DNA of 64,000 nt from the NCBI GenBank assembly GCA_963971305.1, contig OZ020311.1:6758001-6822000 (forward strand), written 5' to 3'. The translations under genes were made by a program, and so were the position numbers. Source of the DNA: Arcuatula senhousia (Eukaryota; Mollusca; Bivalvia; Mytilida; Mytilidae). The notes under the pieces were generated by a model. That model did not search any database, was not told the origin of the DNA, and saw only the letters and a program-made list of their open reading frames with translations. Shown here in pieces: positions 1 through 44,842 of this stretch (position 1 is its first letter; each line of letters opens with the position of its first letter).

Positions 1-631
1 AATCGTTTCCAAAAGGTCGCTTTCTCGAATTTCAAATCAATAACCAATATATAATTTATTATATATTAATGTTGCAGGGGCTGTTTCTGGGGGTAAAGAA
101 ACTCTGCGTAGGGTTCAATCGTTTTATTACCAAATATTACATGGCTCTGAAATTTACAACAAATCAAGTATCAAATATAGAAGTAACAATCAATCAATAT
201 AGTATAACAATATCACAGAAAAAATATAGTAAAATTTTTATGTTGTAATAGCTCTTTTGTAACTCAGAGGTGCGATCTGTTATAGTACATTTAACCTTTT
301 CAAAATATACATCGCATTCCATAGTGATTGGATGTGTATTGCATTCCAATAGAACGACATTGAGCCAACCTCAAAACTTTATATGAAAATATGAAGGTGT
401 ATTTGCGTGATTAAAATAGCAAAATAACTTTAAATGTGTAAATTGATAATCTGTAACTCTAATAAGTCATTATCAAAATATGTTTCTAAATAGTAAATGT
501 AAAGTTTTGTAAATCCGCTTGATACAATATTGGAATATTAAATAATCAAAAATATTAAGGGAGACAATAAAAATCTTACCACACGCAAATATACAGACTA
601 AGCTTACCACTTGTGGAGCAAGCCGTTAAAG
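1..631. other. Host flank left of the large transposon, part of an older inverted-repeat element
   Basis: No coding gene is visible. Bases 23-68 read as an imperfect inverted copy of 12105-12153 on the far side of the transposon: about 45 bp with 4-5 mismatches, starting TCTCGAATTTCAAATC. If the transposon is removed, these arms bound a sequence of roughly 680 bp, so the large element may have landed inside an older inverted-repeat element. The last eight bases (624-631) are the left copy of the target-site duplication. Confidence 0.5.
624..631. repeat. Left target-site duplication (8 bp)
   Basis: The bases cgttaaag directly precede the transposon terminus CACAGG and are repeated exactly at 12074-12081 after the opposite terminus. 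This fixes both element ends to the base. Confidence 0.9.
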
Positions 632-1748
632 CACAGGCGCTTGGGTACAAACTGTGATTCTCGGTGTTTTACCTTATTCCTGGCTTATTTGCATAATAAT
701 CCCTTGAGTGCCTCATATTGTGTTTGAATACGCATGTCTGACCCGTATTTCTAACGTTTTTATAATTTTTAGGCAAGCGCCAGCGAAGCCTTATGGAGTC
801 TATAGAGTAGTGATGATTTTCGCGTTTTTTTTCTGTCTAGACGGAGTGATTTTCCTGGATCCAGACTGGAAGAAAATGCTTTATTTTCTATATTACTTTT
901 CAATATTTTTTAACATGATATACACTTCTATAAATCTCAATTTTTATTGGCACTTTATATGACCGGCACAAGTTTTATTTATTCCTTTGCATCTTTCATG
1001 CCGAACTTTTTAGTTAAAGGCGATAGAATATACATTATGCATTCATCTATTACTTGATTGGTTCGTATAAATATTTCTCTCATTTGATTGGTCAATGCAT
1101 GGATTCAGATTCTAGCTTCACCATTCATAAAATCAGTACAAAATAATACACATCATTGGGACGAGTGCATTTTAATCGAAGGGGTGTTTCAATCGATACC
1201 GTTTTTACACGATACCTGTCTTGTGTGTGTAATTGTGTTCATTAACTTTAAATTTGATGGCATCTGCATGACGATCCTTTCTTCGCTCACCAAAATTAAT
1301 AATTTGCAAACATTTTGAACAATATACTTTAACAGAGAATAAATCTATTATAGTTCTTTATATTTCGCTTGCCTTTAAACGCTTTAGCGCTTTGATTGAT
1401 ATTTACCCTCGTATAAAAAACCACAAGGCAGACAACTGTCCGCCATTTTTTTTGTTATGAAAATACATAAAAATTTGACCTACCTTCTTTCCGGGGGAAA
1501 AGCGCTGTAAAAACGTGCTGTCCTCTAATACCTATCATTGGCGATGTTCACACACATACACAAGATAATGTTTATATCAGTCCTGAGGCACAAATTGTTT
1601 ATTAACCATTTATAATCAATCATTTTCGTCATAGGTTTCACATTTTCACATTTCCATGGACGGAAGTAGACCAAGGGAGGTCACTCTAATTTTCCCGCGC
1701 TTCAGAACTACTCGGACGTTTTCTTCTGAAACAATAAAAAATCCCGAT
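632..1748 (+). repeat. Left 1,117-bp terminal inverted repeat
   Basis: It pairs with 10957-12073. Short open frames of 84 and 76 codons inside it are identical in both arms, which reflects the repeat and not two conserved genes. Similarity stops after atcccgat at 1748: the next base differs from its partner at 10956. A TIR of this length is unusually long and could contain the outward-facing ends needed for transposition as well as promoters facing inward. Confidence 0.9.
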
Positions 1749-1824
1749 GACTTTTGGCGCAAAATTTGATTTTAGCAAAATAAGTTTACTTCTTTACCAA
1801 AAACATTAGAAAAAAGTATTCTGA

Positions 1825-1874
1825 GTCAGTTGGCAGACCTGCATGGAATTCCAAGCAAACTTGCCATTACTGAC
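1825..1874 (+). promoter_or_regulatory. Dyad-symmetric site upstream of the transposase (copy 1)
   Basis: The core palindrome TGGAATTCCA lies at 1844-1853. It is flanked by 13 and 15 spacer bases and then by complementary arms GTCAGT (1825-1830) and ACTGAC (1869-1874). The spacer shares GACCTGCA with the other two copies. The site ends 7 bp before the proposed start codon of transposase exon 1. It may be a protein-binding site, an RNA hairpin in the 5' UTR, or both. Confidence 0.55.
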
Positions 1875-1881
1875 ATCTACC

Positions 1882-4800
1882 ATGGATGAATGTGAAAAAG
1901 AAAGCTGTGCTGATGTACAAAATGCAAATGTACATGAATCCAACAAAATTGACATTGAAGATGGAAAGGAGACATCTAAAGAGAGAATAGTTTCTTGGTA
2001 ATTCATAAAATAAGTTATAAAAAGTCTGACAATAATATACATAACCATGTAACTTTTTGTTGTTATGTTTTCACAATTGAAAAAAAAAGGGGGGGGGTAC
2101 TCCTTGCTAAAAACAATTGATTAGCATTTCACTCTTTAAATCAAGAAAGATTTATCTTAAAATCTCAATAACATGCTCAAGCACCAACTATTGTGTGTAA
2201 TATCAAAGAAAGACTAATCAGCATTGCATTAGTCAAAAGGACCTTTTCCCTTTTTTTTTGGTAAAGGGGGGGGGCATTATTCTCTGACAATCCTTTATAT
2301 TCTAAAGAGCCATATTCTTTATTCTCTATATTTTGGGGCTTTTACTCTACTTATTTTTGGTATCACAATTCTTTATTCTAAACATGCCAAGACAAGGCAT
2401 TACAAGGCAAACTACATGTACATGTACAATGTACTGTGAGTAAAGTGTACATGTACAATGCAATAAATGTATGCATGTTTGTACAATAAAATTTTCAATT
2501 ATACATGTATGTTTAAACCGTACTTCTCCACTATTTCCTTCGCATATAATTGTGACTAGCATTGCTAATAAAAAACTAAAAAAGAAACATTAGAAACAGT
2601 ATACGCCACACAACATATTTGGCTGCTGGCTTAGCTCGTCCTAATTTTGGATTAATTTAAAAAAATGTTGGCCATGGTTAAAAAACACTTTTTACTATAC
2701 AATTATAGTAACCTTTATTCCATTAACCTTTTGCTATGCTAACACAACAGATAGCCTTAGGGAGCAACCATTTGATTTTTTTTTTTGGGGGGGGGGGGTG
2801 TGGATATTTTTGTCGTCCTGCTTTTTTATTTTGGAAAAAACAAGCCTGGATTTTTGTTTTGCATGCTAGGACACACAAGTTTCTTTATTTGTAAAGCTAC
2901 TATTAATTACTAAGCTGTTTTTTTTTTAATTCAAAGCACTGTCCTGCATGCCTTTTTATTTCTGGATTTTTGCCATCCTGCCTTTTTTATTTCAAATTTC
3001 ACTATAGACCCTCCCCCATAAAAAACCAAATGGTTGATCCCTTAAAATATGTACCCTTACATTTTGGTTGATGAAAAGGGGTAGTTTAAAATATGCATGA
3101 CATTTATATTATACAAAAATGTATCATTAATGACATTTTTTGAGAGGGAAGGGTTGTGGTTATATAAATCAGATGTGCATTACTCTTTTTATAGGTTACA
3201 AGAGCATATTCAAGTAGTGCCAGAAAAAGAATTATCATTAAATGAAATATGTGAAGCTTTTACTGGCACAAGTGGAAACATTAAATCTATCAGCAATGGT
3301 GTTGGCAGAACAGTGCAAAAAGTGTTCCCAAAATTAAAAGTTACAAGAAAAAGATGCAAAAGCGATTGGACAACAAGACAAATAGTTTATGGTGGAATTT
3401 TTTGGCGCTCTTGTAATAAAAATATTGAATTTCATCACATCACAACTTTGTCAAAAGATTTTTTTGTTCTAAATGAAAGCCAAAAGTGCATAAGACTTGG
3501 ACATATGCTTAATTTCATGATAAATTCAAACCGAGTTGTTATCGAATTATCTTTTCAAAGCAATTTGGAATGGTTCATCACTATCCGTGACAGACAGGAC
3601 GTCAAACCTAGTAATTTTGGCATGAGCGATAACTACGTCCTTGAAGAAAATAATGTACAAGGAATCCTCTATGGAATAAGAAATGTACGTATGTGCAAAG
3701 GGATTTCTGAAAATCTAGGGCATAGAGATAATGAATGTATAAAAGAAATATTCACCAATAATGCTGTCAAGTCCACCAATGAAGTATACCGCTCTCTTCA
3801 ATGTCAGCATATTCTCAACTTTAGATCTCATCCTGGAGTTCTGGTCTGCTCTGCTTGCAAAAGCCTTCTGCAAGAAAAAAATGTTTTAAGAGATGTTACT
3901 AACACACATGTCCAAATTGTGGACCATGAATATACAAGAATGGAAAAACAATGTAAATCTAAAAGTAAGAAACCAATCAATGACCATAATGACCATTCTT
4001 ATATGAACATAAATGATAAGGCTAAAAAGGCTAGAATTGAACTTAGTAGTACATGTTCAGCTGATTCTGAGCAAATTTCAGGTAGTGAGATAAGAAACAA
4101 TTTGAATAAAAAAACTGAACACAAGATTGTACAAAATAATGGTAACAACACAGAATTACATGTAGCTACAGAAGACAATGGGTTAGAATTAACATTGTCT
4201 AAAAGGGACTGTGATGATATGCATTCAATTTTGGATGAAATGAGTAAAAATAAATGTCCACCTAAAATTATGGAATTTTTATTGTCTCAGAAGGCTGCAC
4301 TTTCAAGTCATCCAAATGGAAGACGTTGGAATGCAAACATTATACGCCTGTGTCTTACCATGTGGTGCAGGAGTCCAAAATGCTATGCAGATTTGAAGCA
4401 AAGTGGGTTTGTGGTAATGCCGTCACAGAAAATCCTGCAAGTATACAAAAATAAATTTCATCAAAAAGCAGGTCTTAACAAAGAGTTGATACACTGGATG
4501 AAAAATGAAGCCCTCAATAGAAACCTACCGCCTGAAGGTTATGAGGGTGGATTGGTTTTAGATGAAATGTCAATTCAGAGTGATATACAGTTTTATTCCA
4601 AAAATGGCAAAACTTATCTTATTGGATTTACTGACATATTAGATGAATCAAACATGATGGACAGCATCAGTAGTGGAAAGAAGGAACTTTCGCTAGCAAC
4701 GCATGTTTTGCAATTTGTTTTTTTAGGATTTACAGGATTTAGATTCCCACTTTTTCATTTTCCAACAAAGCAAGCCAGTGCTTCTGAATTAAATATTTTG

Positions 4801-5769
4801 TTCTGGAAAATTATTAATTTACTACAAATCTTTGGTTTCACAGTCAGATATGTAAGCTTAGATGGGGCTCAAACAAATAGAGATTTTGCCAAAATTTTGT
4901 TAGGAGATTTCAGTTCTGCAAGTGTTACTACCATGAAAGTGCAGAACATATTTTCATTGGTCCCACAATACTCTTATGTTATCATGGACTATTCCCATGT
5001 TATGAAAAAAATAAGAAACAATTTAATTAAAAGTGGAAAAGAGGAGTCTTACAAAAGACATCTGTTACATAAAGGAAATTTCATATACTGGGAACATCTA
5101 AAAAATGCCTATATATGGGATATAACAAATAATCCATTCCCAATTCATCAAAAGCTCTCGCATGAACATTTCCATCTTTCAAATGAATCAAAAATGAGAA
5201 ACAAATTAGCAGAAGAAGTTCTTAACAAGGAAATGCTGCATTTGATGGACAGTTTGGGCGATAAAAGCTCACATCTTAAAAGCACAATTGAATTACTGGA
5301 ACAAACCAGTGTTCTTGTACAAAATTTTAGAGATCACCGCCCTATTAGTGAACCAAGTGATATTAGGCTTGAACAAAATCAACAGGTTTTAAGATGGTTT
5401 CAAGATTGGGAGAAGTGTATACTTTTAAATGCTGATTTAAAAGACAAAGAAAAGCATATGATATCACATCAAACAAGAGCTGACATATGTTCCCTTTTAA
5501 TAGGATTTCATGAGTTATGTACTGAAAAACTTAAAACTTGTTCAGCTTCTATAGTACCAGATAGACTAAACTCTGATGTAATTGAAAATGTTTTTTGTCA
5601 GCAGAGAGGGCTTTACAATGGCAACAACACCAATCCAACTTACCTTAACTACTGCCGCACTATGAATGCTATCATCTTAGGACAAGAGACTGTATCCAAG
5701 AAGTCTAACTCAGGTGGAATAATTCCAGAGGGGGCACAACCATTCAGCTACTCCTTAAAGCCATGTTAA
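1882..5769 (+). CDS. P-element-like DDE transposase, two exons
   Basis: Exon 1 is 1882-1997: an ATG in the context accATGGat, encoding 38 acidic codons starting MDECEKES. A donor GTAATT follows. Exon 2 is 3195-5769 after the acceptor tttttatag. The join keeps frame (TG|G) and gives about 896 residues. An unspliced frame from 3097 would give 890. Near residues 240-270 lies a Cys/His cluster (CQH...CSAC) of zinc-binding look. The catalytic-type blocks follow in P-element order: GLVLDEMSIQ (first Asp), then VSLDGAQTNRDF (second Asp), then LNSDVIENVFCQQRG with the third acidic residue and a later NPTYLNY. This spacing and wording match the P/THAP9 family. I see no canonical N-terminal THAP finger (C2CH). 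Neighbouring genes B and C face the opposite way. Likely role: cutting and joining the element ends in the nucleus. Confidence 0.75.
1998..3194 (+). other. Intron of the transposase gene
   Basis: About 1.2 kb with GTAATT at the 5' end and a pyrimidine-rich tttttatag at the 3' end. It contains stop codons in the reading frame just past the donor, so an unspliced message would encode only a 39-residue peptide from the exon 1 start. It holds TACATGTA-rich sequence at 2410-2515, G-runs and a nested small inverted-repeat element at 2755-3045. Confidence 0.6.
2755..3045. mobile_element. Small inverted-repeat element nested in the transposase intron
   Basis: The left end reads CCTTAGGGAGCAACCATTTG and the right end is its approximate complement, ending in CAAATGGTTGATCCCTTAA. 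G-runs and pieces with the word 'ttttatttctggattttt' lie inside. The same family, with better arms, occurs at 44545-44842. No coding capacity. Confidence 0.6.
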
Positions 5770-5856
5770 AAGATATGATGATAGTACATGATCCTTTCAG
5801 CTGTGATTTAAATGTAAGTACACTTTATATAACTCTGTGTACATGTATCTTAAAAA

Positions 5857-5907
5857 TATCAGACAGGACAGTTAGCTTGGAATTCCATGCAAGTCGCCCA
5901 TCTGATA
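5857..5907 (-). promoter_or_regulatory. Dyad-symmetric site between convergent genes (copy 2)
   Basis: TGGAATTCCA lies at 5878-5887, with 14- and 13-bp spacers and outer arms TATCAGA (5857-5863) and TCTGATA (5901-5907). On the minus strand it shares the GCGAC.TGCATGG core and AAGCTAACTGT tail with copy 3. It lies between the 3' ends of the transposase and helicase genes. Confidence 0.5.
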
Positions 5908-6068
5908 AACACATTTATTCATTGTCAGAAATATATTAAAGCCATTTAATGTCCATCACTTGAAGACTTAATAATTTGAAATCCTTCAAGGTGTCATATA
6001 GGGAGGTCCTTTGTTCCGGTAGTTATATAAATAATGTTCTATCAATTAAAAATCCTGTTTGTTCAATA

Positions 6069-9000
6069 TTACTGACATAGTGGACAGTGATATAACATAT
6101 TTTCAGCAGTAAACTTGTCCCACAATTCAATATCATCTAAATTTACACATGATCTGTGATACCAAACAGTGCAGTCATCACAGCATATCCAATCCTCACC
6201 TTCAATGTACTTTTTATTGCAAATTCCACAATTTTCATTGTTATCTCCACTTTCCTCTACCACATGTTTTTTCTTTCTGGTTGTTTTTCCCTTACTTTGC
6301 AATTTTCTCTTTCCCTTTCCTTTACCCTTGCCTTTACATGTACTTGTAGGCTTATTGGAAGATTGACATGTAGCCTCTTTTGTCACTTTGGCTGCTGAAT
6401 TAGATGGACCAGACTGATTTTCATCGTCCGACCTATCTGGCGACCTATCTGGCAAGCATGTTTGTAATCTCTTTCCCTTTCCTTTACCCTTGCCTTTACT
6501 TGTAGGCTTATTGGAAGATTGATATGTAGCCTCTTTTGTCACTTTGGCTGCTGAACTAGACTGATGTTCATTGTCCAACCTATCTTGCGAGCATGTTTGT
6601 AATCCTGACGTCCCAGGTAGCTGTTCATTATCAGATTCATTCCGATTATCAATGTCAACATCAACTAAATTATGTAATGCAGAAATTTCAGGTTGACTTT
6701 CAAGTTCATTTACATCCTTGCTTTTCTGCTCTTCCGTGTTAGTTGAATGATTGTCGTTACCCGGTTTTTGTTTAGTTTTATCAAATATTTGAAGTATTTC
6801 TGGATTTGGTATACTGTTGCAATTGGAAACTGCTGCAGATAATGTTTCAATTATGTCAGACTTTTTCTTGGATTTGGCTATCTGTAATCCATAGGCTGCA
6901 CATAATGACATTAAATCTTTTTTAATGAATTTGTCAAGCACATTAGAACCTTGCATCAGTTCACTTTTGAGTCTAAGGTGAAATGCCTCTTTGTTTTGGG
7001 ATCTGTCTTGTTGAAGAAATTGCACATCTAGATGTTTTGATTTCGTCTTGCTCTTTTCCATCACTTTTTTCCTTAGTGCTTTACTTTTGTCAACTTTTAA
7101 CGCACAAAGATAATCTTTTCTAAATTGGGCCATGGATACCTTGACAAACAAACATATGATGTTTTTAAATATTGACTGAAGTATGTCACAATACAAACAA
7201 CTGTCTGCTTTGCATAGTTTACAGTCATCTAAATTTGATTCAGATTCAGTAATTGTAATATCATGCTCTTGACCATAGAATTCTTTGATCAAATAAAAAA
7301 ATAGCTTCTCTAATATGTTACTCTTCAGTATTGAGGCCTCGACATCTGAGTACATATCACTCCTCTTTTCATACAAATTATCATATGTCATTTGGTCTCT
7401 ACAATGCTGTTCTAGCTTTTGAAAAAAATTAAAGCAATCATCAGTAATATTACAAAGTGCCTCTGCTCTATTCTGTTTTCTTTGGGTTTCCAGTAGACTA
7501 CCTGGGTATGATGTTGTTTGAGCCAGGTCAGCATAAGTAATACAAAGTGAGCTTAGGATATCATTAATCTTTTTACTCCGATTTACAATTTTCTCTTTCC
7601 CAGGTGCAAACAAAGCATTTCTAAGAACTTTGGAGTTTCTGTATTTCAATTTAGCAACAACATAACCACCAACATATCTTATCTTGCCTCTTGCAGATGA
7701 TTCTAAATTTTGATCCAAAGAAATTTTTGGCAAGATGTTTGGCCAAGATTTTTCATTTCTTTCTTCCACTTCTTTCAGCATTAATGACTGTAAATTGAAA
7801 GTTATATTGGATAATATCTGAAATGTTGAATTTTTGTCCAATGATTTGTACTTCTCTGCCAGTGATGATGTCATTTCTCTGTATTCAGAGGACTGCATGT
7901 ACCTATTTATTTCCAAATAGAATTTGTTGAAGTCTTTCGCTGCAAATTGAACTTTGGTATCTGGAAATGCATTCAAAGATATGTCATGGAATTTAGTTTT
8001 TTGAAAATCATACCACTGGGAAAAAGCTAATAATATTTCCAAAGACCCTGTTTTGACTTTTACTGCAGCATCATAGAGTGGTGTATCATGCATATCAGTA
8101 ATGACATCATCAAAAACTTTTGTTAAGTGTTGAGGCATTTCCATTTCATCAATGATATTGAGAATATCAGGTTCAATATCAGAAAACTCAGACCCTGTCT
8201 TCTTCTCCTCAAAATAATCTAATGTGTCATCATTTGATGTTGAATTGCAGTCTGTTTTATAACTATCAGTCTCTGAGTTGTTGTTTAAGTCACATTCTTG
8301 GTCTACTTTAGTTTTGCAGCATTTTATTACATCATTGTTGTTAACAACATGACCTGAGCTATCTTTATACAGCCGGTAAACATTATCAGGATGAGGTTTT
8401 ACTAGTGATGGCTTAAAATTCTTTATCATGAGTCCATCAGATGTTTTTGCTCGACCAACAGCTACTCCAATCTGGCCAGGAAAATGTGCATTACTGCAAT
8501 CAACAACAACATGTTCCAAAGTCATCCCCTGGGATTTGTGAATTGTTATTGCATAGGCTAACTTAATGGGAAATTGGAGCCTTTTTGCATAGATGATCTT
8601 GTCTACAGGGTCAAACTTGGTAAATAGGTATTTCTCTTATTTAACAGTTTTGGTATTTTTTCCAACGGGAAACTTTACTGTAATACTAATATTATCAAGC
8701 TCAATGACAGTGCCTATCTTACCATTTACCAAGTCATCAGTAAGATTTACCAACAGCATAACTGGTGTGCCCACTTTCACACCTAAATATTTTGGGGCAA
8801 GAATCTTTGCCAAAAAATTATTGCTACCATGATCCTCTGATTGAAAAACATACAGTTGCGAAGGAATACGTTGAAGTTTTTGGTAGTTGAACAAATCGAC
8901 ATCAACATTTCTTGCAAATAAATGAACCGCCTTTTCTGTATCTTCTTCACTTAGTGGTCTACTTAGCGATTGCAAAAATGCAGTTGTTTCTGGGGAAATG

Positions 9001-9608
9001 GATGCTTGTTCTAATTCATTAACGGCTTTAATAAGCAGATGTTCTGACTGTCTATGAATTATTAATAAATTTACATGGTGAGGAAACGCGTCTTTAAACC
9101 AGGGCACAGTAAAGCATGGGTGTCCAAAGTCTCCATACAATTCATTTTTAACGGGTGGAAGTTGGAAAAAATCCCCACTCAAAATGACAGAAATTCCACC
9201 AAAATACAGTGTTTTATTTTTTAGTTCCCGGCAAATAAACTCAACTTGGCTCAGTATTTTAGAACTGATCATTGATACCTCATCAATCACTAAATAATCA
9301 GTTTTCAAAATATTTGACTTCACATAGTCATATCTCTCATCATTTGAAATAAGATGCAGGAGTTCACAATTTTGGTACCTTCCATCTTGCAAACCAGCCC
9401 ATTTGTGCAGTGTGAAAGCCTTCTCTCCTTCAAAAACAGATGTAGCAATGCCTGTTGAACAGGTCAAGGCTACAACATGACCATGCTTTCTTAGATGTTT
9501 TACTGCTGATTGTATAACGAATGATTTGCCAGTGCCTGCTTGGCCTGTTAATAAAACATTATGACCTCCTAGTATTAAATCATAGGCTTGTCTTTGATCT
9601 TCATCCAT
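6069..9608 (-). CDS. PIF1-like helicase with SAP and PHD modules, one in-frame stop
   Basis: The start is the ATG at 9608, with a stop codon two codons upstream in frame. Walker A is GQAGTGKS (residues 22-29). Walker B is DEVSMIS. The PIF1-type block GDFFQLPPV follows, then VMLLVNLTDDLVNGKIGTV. A TAA at 8637-8639 stops the frame. Directly after it the same frame continues through the remaining helicase motifs AITIHKSQGMT and GQIGVAVGRAKT, so one base change separates this from an open gene of about 1,179 codons. Downstream are YVGGYVVAKL, a Cys cluster (CKLCKADSCLYC), a SAP-like helix pair (KKDLMSLCAAYGL), a duplicated Lys/Gly tract and a C-terminal C4HC3 PHD finger starting CGICNKKY and ending CPLC. 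Likely nuclear and involved in transposition or repair. I see no Rep/HUH domain, so it is not a Helitron protein. Confidence 0.78.
6306..6557 (-). repeat. Internal tandem duplication in the helicase gene
   Basis: Two copies of about 85-90 bp (6306-6400 and 6473-6557) encode the same stretch: SAAKVTKEAT, then SSNKPTS and a KGKGKGKGKR basic tract. One copy has 9 extra bases. The duplication lengthens the linker before the PHD finger without breaking the frame. Confidence 0.7.
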
Positions 9609-9669
9609 AGTTTATCAAAGGTGTGTTGGAAAATTAAAATCACAATTTACTTGTTTATGTAACGTTGAA

Positions 9670-9722
9670 ATATCAAACAGAACAGTTAGCTTGGAATTCC
9701 ATGCAGGTCGCCCATTTGATAT
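9670..9722 (-). promoter_or_regulatory. Dyad-symmetric site upstream of the helicase (copy 3)
   Basis: Perfect 8-bp outer arms ATATCAAA (9670-9677) and TTTGATAT (9715-9722) surround 14- and 13-bp spacers and the palindrome TGGAATTCCA (9692-9701). The site lies 62 bp before the helicase start on the minus strand and after the end of the SGNH gene. Confidence 0.55.
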
Positions 9723-9781
9723 ACAACCTTATTGTCAATATTATTGTCATACAAGTATACAAATGTACATGAAGTTAAAAT

Positions 9782-10522
9782 TTACCAACACTCTGTTAAT
9801 ATTCTATTTCCTATTTCTCTCAACCACACTCTGGCAAGATTTTGTTTTGGGTGAATCCCATCCTTGTATAGGTTAAAATTGAAATATTGTGTTGTAGTGG
9901 GTTTTTTACCGGCTTTGCGTTTTGAGCTTGCTTTGAGAAATTTTGAAAAATCTGGTGAGTCTGTAGAGCCTATGCTTGAATTTATTTTACAAATTTCAGA
10001 ATTTACTTTTTGTACTTGTGCTTCCAAAAGAATTTCTTGAGCTTCAAATATTGATGTATCAGGGTGGTTCTGGTAGCTGTTCCAATGAACAATGGAATAA
10101 ACTGGAATCTGCAAAAATGAATATTTAACATTATTAGTATATCCAGATAAAAGATCCTGAAACCTGTGCATATAATCTATGATGTGGTCAACAGTATCAT
10201 TGTTTGTAGTTCTCAATGAGATATCCATTCCTGTTGTACTCTTTTGTGTAAGGTCACATGTACCCAACCAGATAAAAATGTGAATCCGCACAAGATGTTG
10301 AAGTTCCGCATCTATATTACGTCTTAACCATTGAAAGCGGTCTTCTATTCTATCTCCACTTTTGCACCACCAAACAATATTATAATCAAAAGGATTTACA
10401 ATGTTATTCTTAAGATAGTTCCCTTTGCTGTCAGACAATATTACTGGTGTAAATTTTCTTGGTCCTATAGGTGCAGTAAATTGCGATTTGATTAAGTAAT
10501 TGGCAAGCTTTACCTCCGACAT
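9782..10522 (-). CDS. SGNH/GDSL-type hydrolase carried by the transposon
   Basis: A frame of 246 codons starts at the ATG at 10522, which encodes MSEVKLANYL. An upstream GTG at 10528 is in frame but ATG is preferred. SGNH blocks can be read in order: ILSDSKGNYL (nucleophile Ser, block I), WCKSGDRI (block II Gly), FIWLGTCDLT (block III) and KDGIHPKQN (block V, Asp-x-x-His). Block III has Cys where most family members have Asn (GxND), which would alter the oxyanion hole. A Lys/Arg-rich patch, SSKRKAGKK, lies near the C-terminus. SGNH domains are known in some non-LTR retrotransposons, where their function is unclear. The substrate here is unknown. It lies 173 bp upstream of the helicase start on the same strand, so a shared transcript is possible but not shown. 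Confidence 0.68.
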   Translation of the reverse strand: MSEVKLANYLIKSQFTAPIGPRKFTPVILSDSKGNYLKNNIVNPFDYNIVWWCKSGDRIEDRFQWLRRNIDAELQHLVRIHIFIWLGTCDLTQKSTTGMDISLRTTNNDTVDHIIDYMHRFQDLLSGYTNNVKYSFLQIPVYSIVHWNSYQNHPDTSIFEAQEILLEAQVQKVNSEICKINSSIGSTDSPDFSKFLKASSKRKAGKKPTTTQYFNFNLYKDGIHPKQNLARVWLREIGNRILTECW

Positions 10523-10956
10523 TATCACATTGAGATTTTAGAATATCAAAATTAAGGAACAGTATTAATTATAACAGTAAACTATTGAAGTGCATTGATT
10601 GTTCAGGATGACATATATGCTCACAATAAACCAAACAACTTCATGGTATTAATCACGCAACTTTGTTTAAATGTAAATGAATACGTACTGTTTGTCACAA
10701 TTTATACAGATGACAGTTTATATTGTTTAAGTTTTCACATTATTTATAGTTGCACTGATCAGCTGATTGTTTATGAAAAGTGACTTGTCCTCATTTTAAG
10801 CAAAACAATATGAATTAATGTTCTATGAATTACAGACAATGATGATTTTCGTGTAGAAATAAGTATCAGGGTTTATTATAACATTAATCCATGAAAATAA
10901 CTCGAAAATTTTAGAAAATCTTCAAAATATATCACATGTAAACAGATCGACTAATA
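10523..10956. other. Spacer between the SGNH gene and the right TIR
   Basis: AT-rich with no convincing open frame or known motif. It presumably contains the 5' region of the SGNH gene. A TGGAATTCCA dyad like those near the other two genes is not present here. Confidence 0.4.
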
Positions 10957-12073
10957 ATCGGGATTTTTTATTGTTTCAGAAGAAAACGTCCGAGTAGTTC
11001 TGAAGCGCGGGAAAATTAGAGTGACCTCCCTTGGTCTACTTCCGTCCATGGAAATGTGAAAATGTGAAACCTATGACGAAAATGATTGATTATAAATGGT
11101 TAATAAACAATTTGTGCCTCAGGACTGATATAAACATTATCTTGTGTATGTGTGTGAACATCGCCAATGATAGGTATTAGAGGACAGCACGTTTTTACAG
11201 CGCTTTTCCCCCGGAAAGAAGGTAGGTCAAATTTTTATGTATTTTCATAACAAAAAAAATGGCGGACAGTTGTCTGCCTTGTGGTTTTTTATACGAGGGT
11301 AAATATCAATCAAAGCGCTAAAGCGTTTAAAGGCAAGCGAAATATAAAGAACTATAATAGATTTATTCTCTGTTAAAGTATATTGTTCAAAATGTTTGCA
11401 AATTATTAATTTTGGTGAGCGAAGAAAGGATCGTCATGCAGATGCCATCAAATTTAAAGTTAATGAACACAATTACACACACAAGACAGGTATCGTGTAA
11501 AAACGGTATCGATTGAAACACCCCTTCGATTAAAATGCACTCGTCCCAATGATGTGTATTATTTTGTACTGATTTTATGAATGGTGAAGCTAGAATCTGA
11601 ATCCATGCATTGACCAATCAAATGAGAGAAATATTTATACGAACCAATCAAGTAATAGATGAATGCATAATGTATATTCTATCGCCTTTAACTAAAAAGT
11701 TCGGCATGAAAGATGCAAAGGAATAAATAAAACTTGTGCCGGTCATATAAAGTGCCAATAAAAATTGAGATTTATAGAAGTGTATATCATGTTAAAAAAT
11801 ATTGAAAAGTAATATAGAAAATAAAGCATTTTCTTCCAGTCTGGATCCAGGAAAATCACTCCGTCTAGACAGAAAAAAAACGCGAAAATCATCACTACTC
11901 TATAGACTCCATAAGGCTTCGCTGGCGCTTGCCTAAAAATTATAAAAACGTTAGAAATACGGGTCAGACATGCGTATTCAAACACAATATGAGGCACTCA
12001 AGGGATTATTATGCAAATAAGCCAGGAATAAGGTAAAACACCGAGAATCACAGTTTGTACCCAAGCGCCTGTG
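10957..12073 (-). repeat. Right 1,117-bp terminal inverted repeat
   Basis: Reverse complement of 632-1748 with no gap in the alignment. I saw no substitution in the segments compared by eye, including the two shared open frames and the inner end. Confidence 0.9.
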
Positions 12074-12081
12074 CGTTAAAG
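12074..12081. repeat. Right target-site duplication (8 bp)
   Basis: Exact copy of cgttaaag directly after the right terminus, which ends GCGCCTGTG. Confidence 0.9.
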
Positions 12082-12289
12082 AAGAAAAATGTTGTTTACA
12101 AAATTTAAATATTTAATAAATTATGTATCGGTTATGGATTTGAAATTCGAGAATAAACCATCAGGAAACTATTTTTTTTGGGGGGGGGGATACACAGAAA
12201 AACTACGTGTCGAACAAAATATTTGTCATAAGAAAAGAATATTTTTTTAGCGCTGTTCATAATAATAAACTTTGATCTCATAAAGACAA
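12082..12289. other. Host flank right of the transposon
   Basis: Contains the right arm (12105-12153) of the older inverted repeat described for the left flank, then a T/G homopolymer patch at 12172-12190. No gene seen. Confidence 0.4.
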
Positions 12290-12583
12290 AGTATCATCAC
12301 ATAATGACAAAGTATCACCACATAATGAAGAAGTATCATCACATAATGAAAAAGTACCATCACATAATGACAAAGTACCATCACATAATGACAAAGTATC
12401 ATCACATAATGAAGAAGTACCATCACATAATGACAAAGTATCATCACATAATGACAAAGTATCACCACATAATGAAGAAGTATCATCACATAATGACAAA
12501 GTACCATCACATAATGACAAAGTACCATCACATAATGACAAAGTATCATCACATAATGAAGAAGTATCATCACATCATGAAAC
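12290..12583. repeat. 21-bp minisatellite, about 14 copies
   Basis: The unit is close to catcacataatgacaaagta, period 21 bp, with small variants (gac/gaa, tat/tac). Because 21 is a multiple of three and the unit lacks stops in several frames, it stays open on both strands and gives false heptad proteins. I see no sign that it is translated. Confidence 0.9.
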
Positions 12584-12645
12584 ACGTCATCATAAGGCAG
12601 CTATGGCGTTCCATAGATCCTAGTTATATCATCACACGTGCATAA

Positions 12646-13317
12646 GATTACAATTAGAACCTTTATTTCGAACCTGAAATATGCATTTTTTTATTTGACT
12701 GCTTAAATCAAATAATTGCATCCTTGAAAATCTTCAACAAATTATTTTAACTGAAATTTTTTTTAAATTTTAAACCAGTGTAACATGAATGCAAACTTTT
12801 TTATCAATCTACATGTAATTTTAATGTATTGCTATGCTATTTTGAAGAACTCGTTTCTGTGTCATATTGTATGCAGTTGTAGTGAATTTTAAAACATTAA
12901 CCAAAAATAGGCTTTGGTGATTTTTTACATCAGTCGATTGATGATTCTCAGCTAGCTACCAGTAACAGCGAGTATTCTATAGAGAGTTCCTTTACCGTCC
13001 TTTCATTTGTTCTTGTTGTCTTTTGTTTAAGGTTCTCTCTAGTGGAATTGAGCTTTGATCGATTTGATTTTAATTGTGTGTTAAGATTTTGTGCTTTGTC
13101 TAGGAATATTGATTAAGGTAAGGTTGGGCCCAAAAAATAGTTTAACTGCGCCACATATTATATTGATGTTTTCTGTCCCTTGTTTAAGAAGAGGTCTATC
13201 TGTGACTATTTCATGACTGGATTTGAATTATATGCATGTTAATTTGACCATGCAGAACCGCGAGCAGCGCCTACTGTCCTCGTTGAAGGCTGCTCACGGT
13301 TGTCCATTGTGGTTTTT
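12646..13317. other. Non-coding stretch before the monooxygenase exons
   Basis: No convincing exon. Upstream exons of the monooxygenase gene, with the signal peptide, should lie in or beyond this stretch but I could not identify them. Confidence 0.4.
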
Positions 13318-13780
13318 ATACCCCGCCACACGAAGTGGCAGGGTATTATGTTATACCCTCAGTTTTTTTCGGTGTCTGTCCGTCCGTCTGTCCGTCCGTC
13401 CGTCCGTCCGTCCCCCGAAGGTTTCCGACCAATAACTTGAAAACACGTCAAAGGATTTGAATGATATTTTGCACAGCTGTTTAGTACAATAAAATACAGG
13501 TCAAGTTCGATTGCCAGCATGATCCAAAAAATAGTTTTCGAGATAGGCCACTTTGAAAAATCAAATTTCATGAAATTTTGAGTTTCCGACCAATTACTGG
13601 AAAACGCGTCATGGGATTCAAATGATATTTTGTACAGCTACTGAGTACAGTAAAATACAGGTCAAGTAAAATTTCCAGCATGATCTGAAAAACAGTTTTC
13701 GAGATAGGCCACTTTGAAATCAAATTTTATGAACTTTTGATATTAAAACGTGGCGGGGTAATGTCCCATTACATGCCCTA
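13318..13780. mobile_element. Pearl/Helentron-like non-autonomous element H1
   Basis: The left end forms a hairpin, TACCCCGCCAC-acgaa-GTGGCAGGGTA. The right end carries GTGGCGGGGTA (13750-13760), complementary to the left arm. Between them lie a (GTCC)n microsatellite at 13375-13412 and two tandem units of about 157 bp, each beginning near TTTCCGACCAAT. The layout of hairpin, microsatellite, tandem core and terminal arm matches the known pearl and HINE/DINE-type elements. Confidence 0.65.
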
Positions 13781-14504
13781 TTTTTCTACATTGTGATTGT
13801 GGGCTGTGTCGCGTACACTTATTCCACATCTCATTAATTTCTATTTAACTCTTTGATATTGATGCAATTTGTTTTTATGGGTAATTGTGGGAATACAAAA
13901 ATCTTGTTTCCATTGTTAAGCAATCAAAATTTCAACAAACTTTAAATTGAATTTAAGTGCAGATTGTATAAATTATATTTCTACATTTTAACAAATAAAT
14001 GGGTTTCATACAGTCCAATTCTAGTTTTATAACCTTTTCTAAATCATGTAATATGCATCTTATATTTGAGATCTATTTTTATTAATCTTATTAGACTGTT
14101 ATGAGAAGTATGAAGGAACCTATATTTCAAAACCGTTAATAAATTCTAGGCTAAATGGAGTCCTTTACGAATTTAAGTCTGTTTTAGGATTATGGTACAT
14201 AAATTTGTATGTTATTTCAAAACCAAAACTCTTCTTTTAAGCTTTTCCGTGCTGTATGATTCACTTTGATTTCCTTATTTTCTATCAATTTTGTATTTTT
14301 ACTTTCTTGATTAAGGAAAATGCTATATGCTTATGTAAAATCCCTCCCTGTGCAAGTGAGGCTTTGAAGGGCCCAAATTGAGCTAACTCTAATCGAGTAA
14401 AATTTAATCGGTAGTTCTATATGTGGTTTTAATTTAAATCTATATATGGTTTTATAGTAGATCATTTATGAAGTTTTATCTCGTTTCTGTTGATTCATTT
14501 CCAG
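13781..14504. other. Probable intron upstream of the first recognised monooxygenase exon
   Basis: AT-rich, no convincing exon. The 45 bp around 13800-13845 resemble 40405-40450 (both contain acacttattccacatctcatta), a small dispersed repeat. Confidence 0.35.
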
Positions 14505-17500
14505 GAATTTGTGAACCGTTGGAGTCTGACAAATGTAAGGAACAGAATGATTGGTTAGACTGTAGTGAAGATGATAATTGTGCTGCTTTAAACCAACAAG
14601 GTAACATTAGGATTGAATCAATGTTTCAATAGACCAAGTCGAAATAACAGTCAATAGGTAGTGGTTGTAATGAATATTCTACTTCAAGCCAAAAAATAAT
14701 AATAAAATGCCATTTAGCCTTAAAGCAGCTGTCAAACTTAACAAGTTTAACGTTACTACTTGAAGTTATTGACATAACTGTGCTGCTAAAGCAAAATAAG
14801 TAAATTCTAACTGGAACAGCTAACACAATTTAAAAAGCCGAACAAACATTCAAGCACTGTGCATTCACTTAAACTTTCTGCAGACGTGCTGGTCTTTGAA
14901 TTCTGGATAATATTGACAATATTAGATTGGTTCAAGAGATGTGTCTGCTGTAATAGACTAGCTGTTAGCTTGTTTATTACCATTCCTTGTCTTTGCCGAC
15001 TATCTACGCATTTAAAGATGCTATCTTTTGCAGATGTGAAGAAAATTGAGTTACGGATACCAAAAGTAACAATCCCAACGAAACAAACAACCTACCAGTG
15101 TCAGATTTTCGACCTACCAGAAGTTAACAGAGGCACCTATCACATGATCGGAACTAAGCCAATCATAGACAACAAGGATATCACTCATCACATACTCCTG
15201 TTCGGTTGTGATGAGCGAAGTATGTCAGGTTTAAAAACCAATATATTTAAATTATTTGTTGTTAATATGACAAAAGGTCAGACATGAATTTTTTATAACC
15301 AAAATGTATTACAGAACGATACTTTTATGTACATAGGAATGGTTTCGGGAATAGTTGTCAAGAATTTAATGCTTTGATAATTTTGAAATTAAAGTGGTAA
15401 AGACCCTTTTCAATATAAAAATCTTTTATACCCATTTCATAAGCGTCAAATTGGTCGTTAATGAGACTCACAAAAGCCTTTATCACTTACCTGGTCCTTA
15501 AGCTTTAATTGGTTTCCACAATGAGCTATTACCCCTGTAAGCTTTGACCAAATGGATACCTTTGTAGAGCTAAATGAGCTGAAAATTTAAGCAACCAACA
15601 GCTTTTCTCTATTTGCAACAGTTTTCTTTCGGTATGGCAATAACATTAGAAAACCGTTATTTTTACATTAATAGGCCCATAAATCCTTTAAAAGATCAAT
15701 CGTGTCAAGTTTCATAAAATTCTGTTCAGTTTCAGAGGAAATTTGAACTCAAATAGGCAACTTTTGAAGAACATTACTTACCAGTCTGAATGTCTTTGTT
15801 TAGGTGGTCCTCTAGAGTTCATCGACAACGTTCCTTATGAATGTGGTATGCTTGCCCACAGACAATGTGTTCATATCATTGGCACATGGACTGTTGGTTC
15901 AACTGGTGATTGCTTCCATAATTCTTCTGGATTTAGAATCGGTCAGAATGGATTTAAACGCGTCGCAATGCAGGTTCGAGAAATAAATTATTTTCAACTG
16001 TAGAAATGAAAGTAAATGATGATGATCGCACTATAAAGGTTCATGTATAAAGCTGCCTTTCTTTTTCGTTAAATGACACTCACTATCCTAAATACTAGTA
16101 TACTTTTCGATCATATCATTGTCAAAACTTAGTTAAACAACCTTTCATTGTGTTTGCCAACTTAAAGAAGCAGAGGTACCAATTGGGCATTCTAATGTCT
16201 TAAGTCCGAAATGCCATGAAAAACAGACAACAGAAACGAGAACAACACAAAATCAACCTCACAGTCAAAAGTTGTAATGCGAGTGAACTCTTGTGTTTCA
16301 GATGGGTAGGCAGTTATCATATATTGAAACAGATCTGTCGCGTTGCTACATGTAATGATAAGTTATGTTGTAAAACCTTGTGAATTTCCAACGTCAATTG
16401 TATCTTTTTAGATTCACTGGAATAATCCAAGTTTGATTCCGAATCTAACTGATTCATCGGGATTGGAATTGTACTACACAAAGATCCTCCGATCGTACGA
16501 TGCAGGAATGTTTGTTTTTGGACAAGAATATCTGGAAATCCCGCCAGAAAAACCGGAAGTTACGTTTCAGTCCTCTTGTTCTCCAGACTGCACAAAAGTC
16601 ATGTTTCCGAAAAGTGTTTATATTACGAGAGCTGTCAATCACATGCATTATCAAGGTAAGATTGTGGCATAAATTAAGGTTTGAACTGGAATCACTCTTT
16701 CTGCATTTTTTATTTTGTTTGCTTTATTTTTTGGGGGCACTTTTCTTAATTCTTAACAATTCATTTGGTCATGATACTCTAATTCTCCACTTTACGACCA
16801 TTTTATATCAATTCTTTAGTTATTTTTCTCTATTCCTCAAGCCTTATCCACAGTTCATTAAAGTGTTGGTTTATTCCAAAGAACAGTTTCTTGATACACT
16901 TGTTTTTCGTTAAGAAGAAAGATCATTCAAAAATATTTATATTGTGTAGGAGATTACAATCCCAATCCATTTTCTAAAGTAACTTGTCTTTTCAATGATA
17001 ATATTATTATTTCATGGCTTTTTAGTCAATGATTACACAGATTGAGTTTAAAGTTACTTCTGCTTCCTTTCCATTTATTTGTGGCTTTTATATTTTTCAA
17101 CATCCAGGTAGAAGTCAGAAAATAGAAATTTACAGAAATAACATAAAAATTAGAGATATAACAAACGATGATAATTACAGTTATGAAAGACCGATATTTT
17201 ACAAGTAAGTCTTTTCTTTTGCACTTTTGTTCATTTTATCTGTCGCTGTTGACTTTATGTCCGTTTCTCTCATAGTGTCTTGTTTTTTTTCCTGATTTCT
17301 GGTGCAGTCAAACGAATTTTCAACAAAATAATGTAAAAAAAAAATATTATACTAGTAGTCCTTCATCAGTACTTTATGATGTTTAACAACCTGTAGAGAG
17401 ATATGTTATAATATTACATATGGTTTATCATTCTTACATTTTCATTGGATTATTTGGTCATGTGATTTTAGTGATATTTAGTGTATTTCTTTGCTTTGGA

Positions 17501-24800: not shown

Positions 24801-27800
24801 AAACCAAAACGTTCAAACAAGGAGCCAAATCCAGCACTGAGGATATCGACCATGTGCATTACAAGGAAAGAAACCTGGTGTTTTAAACAATTTTTAATTT
24901 AAAAATCGGAAATTTCAGTGACATAATAGAAATTTTATGGTTAATTGTGTCAGACAAGTCTAACAACCAGGCTTGTGATTACCCTTAGGGACCTCTGGTC
25001 CACTAGGAGCAGTTATCGCCTAGTGGTTTCAAAATTACAAATACCAAAACGCGGGTATAAATGGTTGATTTAGCTATGCTATATATCAATTTTTCAAGGA
25101 AATCATGTCCTAAAATTAAATAGAAAAGTTTAAAAAACCCTCAATACAATTTAGGGTAAAATAACAATGAATTTAACATTAACAGAAACAATCTTGCATC
25201 CAAAAAGAGCCTTGAGTTTGAATGGTCTTTATGTATCTTATTCTTCCGAGAAGTTTGAAAGCAGAGGACGAGATTATTAAGAAGTCTACAATACCATTCC
25301 TTTTAAAACTGGCCTCATTAACTTCTATGGTAATAAATATACTGACTGTTTGATTTATTTGCTTTTTCAGAGTAGTTTGACAGCAGAGAGTGAGATACTG
25401 AAGAAATATACAGTACCATTCCTGTAAAAACTGGTCTCATTTGCTACTGAAATTACTGACTATTTTATTTTACTTGGTTTTTCAGAGTAGTTTGACAGCA
25501 AAGAGTAAGATTATTAAGAAGTCTACGGTAACATTCCTGTTAAAACTAGCCTCATTATCTCTTAATTGACTGACCTTTAAATAAACTTGCCTTTTTCAGA
25601 GTAGTTTGACAGCAGAGAGTGAGATTATAAAAAAGTCCACAGTACCGTTTCTGTTAAAGCTGGCCTCATTATCTCCTATGTTACTGAATATACTAACAAC
25701 AGATCTGATGAAAATGTGTAAGTGTCACAGTGTGATCTGTAGTGGTACTGTGGATTCATTTATTTTCGTGGGTTCCAATTTTCGTGGTTTGGGAAAAAAG
25801 AATTAGTTGGTGGAATCTTGAATTCATGGTTTTGAAGTTTGTTGCATACAAAGCAATGTTAATTTTCCTTTTCGCTGGGTATAGAATTTCGTGGGTCAAA
25901 GCCACCCACAAAAACCATGAAAATTGGTACCCCACGAATAATAATGAAACCACAATACAAAAGAGAAAATTTTAATCACTGACCATCAATCCTACATTTA
26001 TATGTGTATTGTGTCTTTTACTTTATTCAAAATCAGCCAGTCATTTTTTAATCTTCTTTTTTTCACCCAGCTGCAAAATGGAGTGGGGACAGATATACCC
26101 TGTATCTGTCAGTGTATGTATTTGTCTCATGAAAAATGATGTGTTTCCCATCTATTTCAGTAACACCTCAAGTCCTTAATCAACTAAACACAGTACTGTC
26201 ACAATGGAAGAACACGAATCATCAAGAATATGAAAGGTAGGAAAATACTTGTTTAATCAACATGTTACTGTTTCAGTTACACCCACAAGTGTAAAAAAAA
26301 CACTTAATGTTATCACAAATGAAGTACACAAATCATTATTTGAAAGATTGGAACAAGAGAGGTCTATGTCCACAAATCATGATTTTAAGGTGATTCTTTA
26401 CTGTGGTTTTTTGATTTTTGTCTGGCCTGTGCAGCAGAGGGAGGCATTTGTGTTATTTTACCAGTGGCGACTGTGATGATGACCTGGTTAACCTTTTTGT
26501 TAAGGTTTTATGAGCACCTCCTTATATCAAGAACTACAAATGTATAAGTCCTAGGTCGATGAAACTTGGTATGCAAATGCCCAAGTAGTAGCTTAGCACA
26601 GCCTCATCCCTATATCTTGACCTTGATTTTCCAGTTGAGTGACTTTGACAATTCTCAATGCATATAACAGCAATGTTTTTTTAACTTAAAACTACTTGTG
26701 CAAACCACAAAACCAAATTTCCAATGCTTTTTGGGGGAAGACTATGAAAATTTATCACATTAAAAATAAATGAATCCAAAAAGTTGTTTATGACATTGTT
26801 ATATGAAGTCCTTTCTCAAGGTTATTAATCATGTTGTCTAATTTCAGTTTTCTCCTGCTGGTCGTCCACTTAGTAATACAAAGTGATATTGGAGCATACC
26901 AAGTTCTCTTGTTTTTTCTAAAGACAGCTATACCATCAGGTAATTCTAGTAGTGGGCATCCCATTGTAAAGAACAATATTGTATTCTGGTTTATTTTTGT
27001 TTATACATGTATCTATCAAATTAAAAAATAATCCTTTTGTTCATTAAAGTAAAAACCTGAATGCCAAAATCTTAAGTTTTTGTGTACATGTATAAAAACT
27101 TGTTGTACTGTTGAAATGACAATGTCTTGTTTTTGTCTCGCCTGCGACGAAAAGTCGCGGAAGGCGAGACATAGGTATTACTTTCGTAAACTTTTTTGTA
27201 AGACTTTTGTGGACAATAAATTGCTTGAAAAGTATAATAGCTAGACATCTGATATTTGTTATACAGACAGTTCAGGTTATGGTTTATGCAACTGTCACCA
27301 TGCCGTGTGACCCTGACCCAATTTTCACGCTCCAGTGACTCTGTGAACTTAGGTCTTTTTTCAGGCTGTAAACTTTTTTGAAAGACTTTTGTGGACGATG
27401 AATTGCTGGAAAAGTATAATAGCTAGGCATCTGATATTTGGTATACAGACAGTTCAGGTAATGGTCTATGCAACTGTTACCATGCCGTGTGACCCTGACT
27501 CCATTTTCACGCTCCAGTGACTCTGTGAACTTAGGTCTTTTTTCAGGCTGTAAACTTTTTTGTAAGACTTTTGTGGACGATGTATTGCTGGAAAAGTATA
27601 ATAGCTAGGCATCTGATATTTGGTATACAGACAGTATAGGTTATGGTCTACACAACTGTCACCATGCCGTGTGACCCTGACCCCATTCTCACGCTCCAAT
27701 GATTCTGTGAACTTAGGTCTTTTTTCAGGCTGTAAACTTTTTTGTAAGACTTTTGTGGACGATGAATTGCTGTAAAAGTATAATAGCTAGGCATCTGATA

Positions 27801-44544: not shown

Positions 44545-44842
44545 GCTAAGGGAGCGACCATTTGATTTTAATGGGGGGGGGGGGGGGGGGGGGTTATGGT
44601 GTAATTTGAAATTAAAAGGCAGGCAAAATCCAGAAATAAAAAGGCAGGACAGTGCTTGAGTAAAAAAAAAAAAGGGCAGGCTGGTATTTTGGCTACAAAA
44701 TTTATAGTTGCTTTGAAAAAGAAAATATTTGAGTGCGCAAGCGGGCAAGAAAAAATTCAGGCTCGACTTTTTCCGAAAATAAAAAGGCAGGACAAAGAAA
44801 ATATCCATAGCCCCCCATAAAATCAAATGGTTGCTCCCTTAG
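44545..44842. mobile_element. 298-bp inverted-repeat element, same family as 2755-3045
   Basis: Left GCTAAGGGAGCGACCATTTG and right CAAATGGTTGCTCCCTTAGC are complements apart from one base. An inner G-run (44573-44593) faces a C-run at 44811-44816. Internal text includes two aaaaaggcaggaca words. Confidence 0.7.

Follow-up and report, generated by a model that had tools for sequence, protein, structure and literature searches.

A P-like transposon with a PIF1-PHD helicase gene and an SGNH hydrolase gene in the bivalve Arcuatula senhousia

We investigated a stretch of 64,000 nucleotides from the genome of the mytilid bivalve Arcuatula senhousia (contig OZ020311.1, positions 6,758,001 to 6,822,000 of the forward strand; hereafter the window). 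Close to its left end lies an 11.4-kb transposable element that contains a transposase of the P/THAP9 type, a PIF1 helicase ending in a PHD finger, and an SGNH hydrolase (Table 1). It is a real and well-bounded element and probably an undescribed form of the P superfamily. An initial annotation of this DNA reported a perfect 8-bp target site duplication and terminal inverted repeats (TIRs) of 1,117 bp, and both held when the ends were re-read. The repeat-finding program stretches the arms by 6 bases into the partly palindromic flanks; the true arm is exactly 1,117 bp long, its outer end begins with CACAGGCGCTTGGG, and the interior between the arms comprises 9,208 bases. The 8-bp duplication is what the P superfamily leads one to expect, here from a single insertion. 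The identity of the TIR arms suggests that the insertion is recent, although gene conversion could also have preserved it. A blastn search with the element found no second copy in the rest of the window, and Rfam gave no match at E≤1 across positions 400-12400. In positions 1-14000, the ATG-started open reading frames (ORFs) of at least 120 amino acids are four pieces only: the transposase, two parts of the helicase, and the SGNH hydrolase. The three genes originally placed inside the element are all present as coding units, the helicase frame being interrupted by a stop codon in this copy.

Table 1. Features of the element and its ends, in coordinates of the window.
Feature	Position	Strand	Description
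Target site duplication, left copy	624..631	.	8 bp, CGTTAAAG, direct reading
Left TIR	632..1748	+	1,117 bp, 0 mismatches to the right arm
Internal repeat, copy 1	1826..1861	-	36 bp, just 5' of transposase exon 1
Probable transposase first exon	1882..1997	+	ATG to donor GTAATT
Probable intron	1998..3194	+	GT...AG
Transposase main exon	3195..5769	+	likely RFX-like N-terminal winged helix; P-type RNase H core
Internal repeat, copy 2	5870..5905	+	36 bp, between the transposase and helicase stop codons
PIF1 helicase	6069..9608	-	long C-terminal extension, terminal PHD finger; one in-frame stop
Internal repeat, copy 3	9684..9719	+	36 bp, between the SGNH stop and the helicase start
SGNH/GDSL-fold hydrolase	9782..10522	-	246 amino acids, Ser32-Asp221-His224; from sequence and predicted structure
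Right TIR	10957..12073	-	1,117 bp, 0 mismatches to the left arm
Target site duplication, right copy	12074..12081	.	8 bp, CGTTAAAG, direct reading

Read without splicing, the transposase ORF spans 3097-5769 on the plus strand. Judged from sequence, the segment at 1882-1997 is a probable first exon. Joined to the main exon it gives a predicted spliced frame that stays open for 896 amino acids, and the predicted junction (...IVSW/LQEHIQ) resembles, when compared by eye, the start of the relative P0006 (...LFSWLVENIE). A dispersed repeat lies inside the proposed intron: its part 2125-2386 matches 44585-44842 on the opposite strand (72% over 281 columns), and this is the sole blastn match between the element and the remainder of the window.

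The P/THAP9-type catalytic blocks that had been recognized in the transposase are borne out by the family alignment. The transposase domain of this type is present, and the catalytic residues D493, D593, and E834 (numbering of this analysis) are conserved in 14/14, 13/13, and 9/9 of the rows reaching that far. Between the second D and the E lies the C/DxxH motif, as defined in excerpts of PMC9587614, with D635 and H638 each found in 13 of 13 rows. A GTP-binding insertion (PF21788) is matched in 4 of the 14 family proteins (best value 1.7e-4), and a structural match spans the region; the window's own transposase has no match to PF21788 at E≤1. No THAP zinc finger was found in the transposase N-terminus, which is likely an RFX-like winged helix instead. 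The predicted fold agrees with expectation in part: it has a P-type RNase H core and the three acidic residues are conserved in the alignment, but the N-terminal part of the RNase H domain is of low confidence in the model. The core alone has no match in a phmmer search of the PDB; only the family profile matches.

A single in-frame stop codon at 8637-8639 splits the helicase gene into two parts of one frame, 323 and 855 codons long, and the relatives P0015, P0016, and P0020 are uninterrupted at this place. Its first part matches PIF1 (4.4e-25) and the 2B domain (2.9e-7); the second comprises the final helicase motifs, an extension of about 700 residues, lysine-rich repeats, and the C-terminal PHD finger (1.8e-5; 25.1 bits, cut-off 24). 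The extension has no curated family match. The SAP module of the initial annotation did not fare as well as the PIF1 and PHD domains: when the helicase was cut into seven segments, four gave matches to Rho_N, HeH, or SAP_new25, all sub-threshold, and no curated SAP match emerged. Among 21 rows of the helicase family, several of which are partial, PIF1 is matched in 15 and PHD in 9 at E≤0.1. In seven relatives scanned singly, the Pinctada protein P0024 included, PHD is found in all seven (in three above the curated cut-off) and PIF1 in six; P0026 from Mytilus galloprovincialis contains both. Since the relatives share both domains, the PIF1-PHD architecture is no product of this locus. A common origin of the helicase extension and the transposase was considered and rejected (hhalign probability 0.5%). 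Defence-system profiles have no match to the three window pieces searched and only generic helicase matches to the relative P0015, and NCBIfam returned only helicase- or ATPase-type matches far under their cut-offs.

Helitrons encode PIF1-like helicases, and one could assume that a Helitron equipped with such a helicase and with an SGNH gene jumped into an ordinary P-like element. The helicase gene is flanked by same-orientation short repeats (at 5870 and 9684), and an association with SGNH genes is described for fish Helitrons (in the portion of PMC4021074 consulted). However, the short repeat is also found beside the transposase gene in reverse orientation, no HUH initiator domain is among the Pfam matches listed for the helicase proteins, and the helicase profile has its best match in Pif1 chains (2.6e-92), far ahead of the Helitron transposase Helraiser (2.7e-30). 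We consider this explanation quite improbable.

The third gene had been called an SGNH hydrolase, an assignment that stands: the fold is supported, the triad residues S32, D221, and H224 are present in 20/20 rows, and G56 is present in 18/20. With blocks assigned by eye, the position of the block III Asn (oxyanion) is Cys89 in all 20 rows, which we count as a difference from the esterases of long interspersed nuclear elements (LINEs) as these are described. The ORF1 proteins of CR1/L2/RTEX LINEs (e.g., ZfL2-1) include SGNH esterases, joined in some groups by PHD fingers (excerpts of PMC3905857 and PMC4120745); going by those descriptions, they differ in belonging to retrotransposons, whereas here the SGNH hydrolase is a separate gene and the PHD finger is fused to PIF1. 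The ZfL2-1 esterase is not among the PDB matches listed for the SGNH model, which speaks neither for nor against a kinship. SGNH genes are also associated with other transposon classes, as texim in fish Helitrons (PMC4021074) and as the GDSL ORF3 of bdelloid long terminal repeat elements (PMC5408684). From what these sources present in part, neither group has a P-type transposase, and texim lies near or beside the Helitron coding regions.

Compared with the P superfamily (Drosophila P, THAP9), the element shares the transposase fold, the catalytic blocks, the 8-bp duplication, the presence of TIRs, and, in some relatives, the GTP-binding-type insertion. It differs in its 1,117-bp TIRs, its RFX-like N-terminus without a THAP match, and its two extra genes. 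The P elements known to us have short TIRs and encode a transposase only. Among other superfamilies, Kolobok elements also combine a cut-and-paste DDD/E transposase with repair-type enzymes (the RecQ helicase of KolobokH, the nucleases of KolobokD/E/P), one red-algal family resembles our element in encoding its helicase on the complementary strand, and Kolobok shares the C/DxxH motif with the P superfamily. Unlike our element, Kolobok produces 4-bp TTAA duplications and encodes RecQ rather than PIF1, and SGNH and PHD are unmentioned in the excerpts of PMC9587614 from which this comparison is drawn. The claim that the gene set is undescribed for the superfamily is consistent with the full-text literature, in which our search found no member of the P superfamily that carries PIF1, SGNH, or an RFX-like domain (judged by titles and the beginnings of abstracts; Repbase, Dfam, and subscription papers lie outside its scope). 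In term searches, the main text of a bivalve transposon survey (PMC10294476) lacks "P element", "P superfamily", "PIF1", "SGNH", and "THAP", and a survey of transposon-derived transcription factors (PMC10027918) lacks "RFX".

The three gene families recur in parallel. Database searches returned 13 relatives for the transposase and 92 for the SGNH protein; among the best 120 of 132 helicase matches about 21 are full-type relatives, and the remainder contain helicase motifs only, some under bacterial names. Pooled over the transposase, full-type helicase, and SGNH matches, the named bivalve sources are Mytilus coruscus, M. edulis, M. galloprovincialis, Pinctada imbricata, Mercenaria mercenaria, Mizuhopecten yessoensis, and Saccostrea echinata, with Mercenaria the only named source among the transposase relatives. 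A few Candidatus Thiodiazotropha bins also occur among the sources; these bacteria are clam symbionts, and we take the matching bins to represent host contamination. The possibility, raised at the outset, that helicase and hydrolase occur at this locus only does not agree with their recurrence across bivalves. The best helicase relative (P0014) and the best SGNH relative (P0134) are on equally long contigs (5,247) from the same source, a size match with a probability of about 0.0003 for the pair under a length-jitter null. A second locus shared by helicase and SGNH genes is suggested. Over all helicase-SGNH size coincidences, 0.10 are expected under this null versus two seen, one of them physically implausible.

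The large size and the accessory enzymes recall virus-like elements such as Teratorn, as far as partial accounts of these go, and the region might be read as an endogenous virus or a virus-transposon hybrid. This is hardly credible, as none of the four ORF pieces matches a capsid or polymerase family among the matches listed, and viral contigs contain neither a relative of any of the three proteins in a pattern-based search nor an exact match to the TIR end. A pattern-based search of prokaryote genome contigs with the SGNH and transposase families found no relatives either.

The explanation we favour, at somewhat better than even confidence for the whole, is a P-type transposon with promoters in its TIRs, a helicase that aids gap repair, and an SGNH accessory enzyme. 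The transposase, with its RNase H fold and D-D-E residues, would excise and insert the element with 8-bp target duplications, probably binding DNA through the RFX-like winged helix; cut-and-paste transposition is what the type of transposase and the duplication seen here imply. The identical TIRs may act as two inward promoters, the left for the transposase and the right for the SGNH hydrolase and the helicase. The transposase exon starts 134 bases beyond the inner end of the left TIR, 434 bases separate the SGNH start from the inner end of the right TIR, and both the SGNH and the helicase gene point leftward; with two identical, inward-facing TIRs, a promoter within the repeat would drive genes on both sides.

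The way in which cut-and-paste elements multiply depends on gap repair by the host, for which P elements are the textbook example; aborted repair leaves internally deleted copies. A P element gains copies when the gap left by its excision is refilled by the host with the sister or the homologue as template, and the PIF1 encoded here would most likely aid synthesis across the full length of the element and its 1.1-kb inverted repeats. Among the possible helicase roles, for which the initial annotation had offered a replicative or repair-coupled mode or targeting to marked chromatin, we prefer this one, tentatively. In flies, efficient repair of a 14-kb P element gap reportedly needs PIF1 if POL32 is absent, and loss of HELQ leads to shorter repair synthesis (excerpts of PMC8951532, the former citing earlier work). 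An 11.4-kb element with 1.1-kb inverted repeats would gain from having such a helicase of its own. The PHD finger may tie the helicase to chromatin, and a histone contact is suggested. The SGNH hydrolase would be an accessory enzyme of a type known from several other transposon classes, perhaps acting on lipids, membranes, or acyl groups as has been suggested for the ZfL2-1 esterase; that protein is hydrolytically active and binds to phospholipids (according to parts of PMC3905857).

A more far-reaching version, possible but doubtful, is that a bivalve P lineage carries its own gap-repair kit, in which the PIF1-PHD protein drives long-tract copying into the donor site, THAP was swapped for RFX, and SGNH was adopted. 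If this were the case, cut-and-paste would become a reliable copy-by-repair process. With an element that brings its own PIF1, the dependence on gap repair could be tested by setting lineages that have the helicase against lineages that lack it. Through the SGNH gene, one more transposon class joins the carriers of this enzyme.

We infer that the three genes are co-inherited as one unit, and several observations weigh against this and against the favoured explanation as a whole. The predicted transposase model is weak (predicted local distance difference test 57, and below 50 in the N-terminal part of the RNase H domain). The helicase is broken by a stop codon while the TIRs are still identical over 1,117 bp; either the stop arose only very recently, or helicase from other copies acts in trans, or the element can do without one. 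None of the 13 transposase contigs equals any helicase or SGNH contig in size, and size matching among the database relatives revealed no second locus with the transposase and either partner. For the 10,835-base contig of the closest transposase relative (P0001, 74% identity), no same-sized helicase or SGNH match is listed, although broken or short helicase ORFs would escape such a comparison. Size matches do arise by chance, because P0022 and P0136 (3,349) can hardly share one contig: the two genes would jointly take up about 3,860 bases, and they come from different sources. Finally, the SGNH protein has 92 relatives versus 13 for the transposase, and the SGNH family may therefore also be present in mobile elements of other kinds or among the genes of the host.

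The stop codon and the lack of a transposase contig matched to a helicase or SGNH contig would also fit a history in which helicase and SGNH are passive host cargo, captured once at this locus and without a role in transposition. There is a parallel in fish, where the SGNH gene of Helitrons is thought to have been captured and most Helitrons lack it (as stated in part of PMC4021074). Nevertheless, both families recur in bivalves, PHD is found in many of the helicases, and the catalytic triad is retained throughout the SGNH rows. Each Mytilus species has two to four SGNH entries, as for mobile genes, the best relatives of the three genes are similarly close (74, 71, and 67% identity), and one helicase/SGNH pair is apparently linked. 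We regard passive cargo as unlikely.

The three internal repeats share the near-palindromic core GCTTGGAATTCCATGC, and each is located at a gene boundary; within the window GGAATTCC is confined to them. Candidate readings are a regulatory site, a transposase-binding site, or a scar of gene capture. To our knowledge the repeat does not resemble the RFX X-box. We keep it as a palindromic DNA motif because only copy 1 folds clearly better than shuffled sequences (z -3.6; -1.6 and -0.4 for the others), and an RNA hairpin reading was rejected.

A probable host gene is found some 3 kb away from the element: 14811-15284 probably represents an exon of a copper type II ascorbate-dependent monooxygenase (PF01082, 3.2e-14). 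Further to the right, 25244-60544 is rich in long tandem arrays; several of these have periods of 155-182 bases, and the arrays at 27186, 39015, and 59730 have a similar 182-base unit in common.
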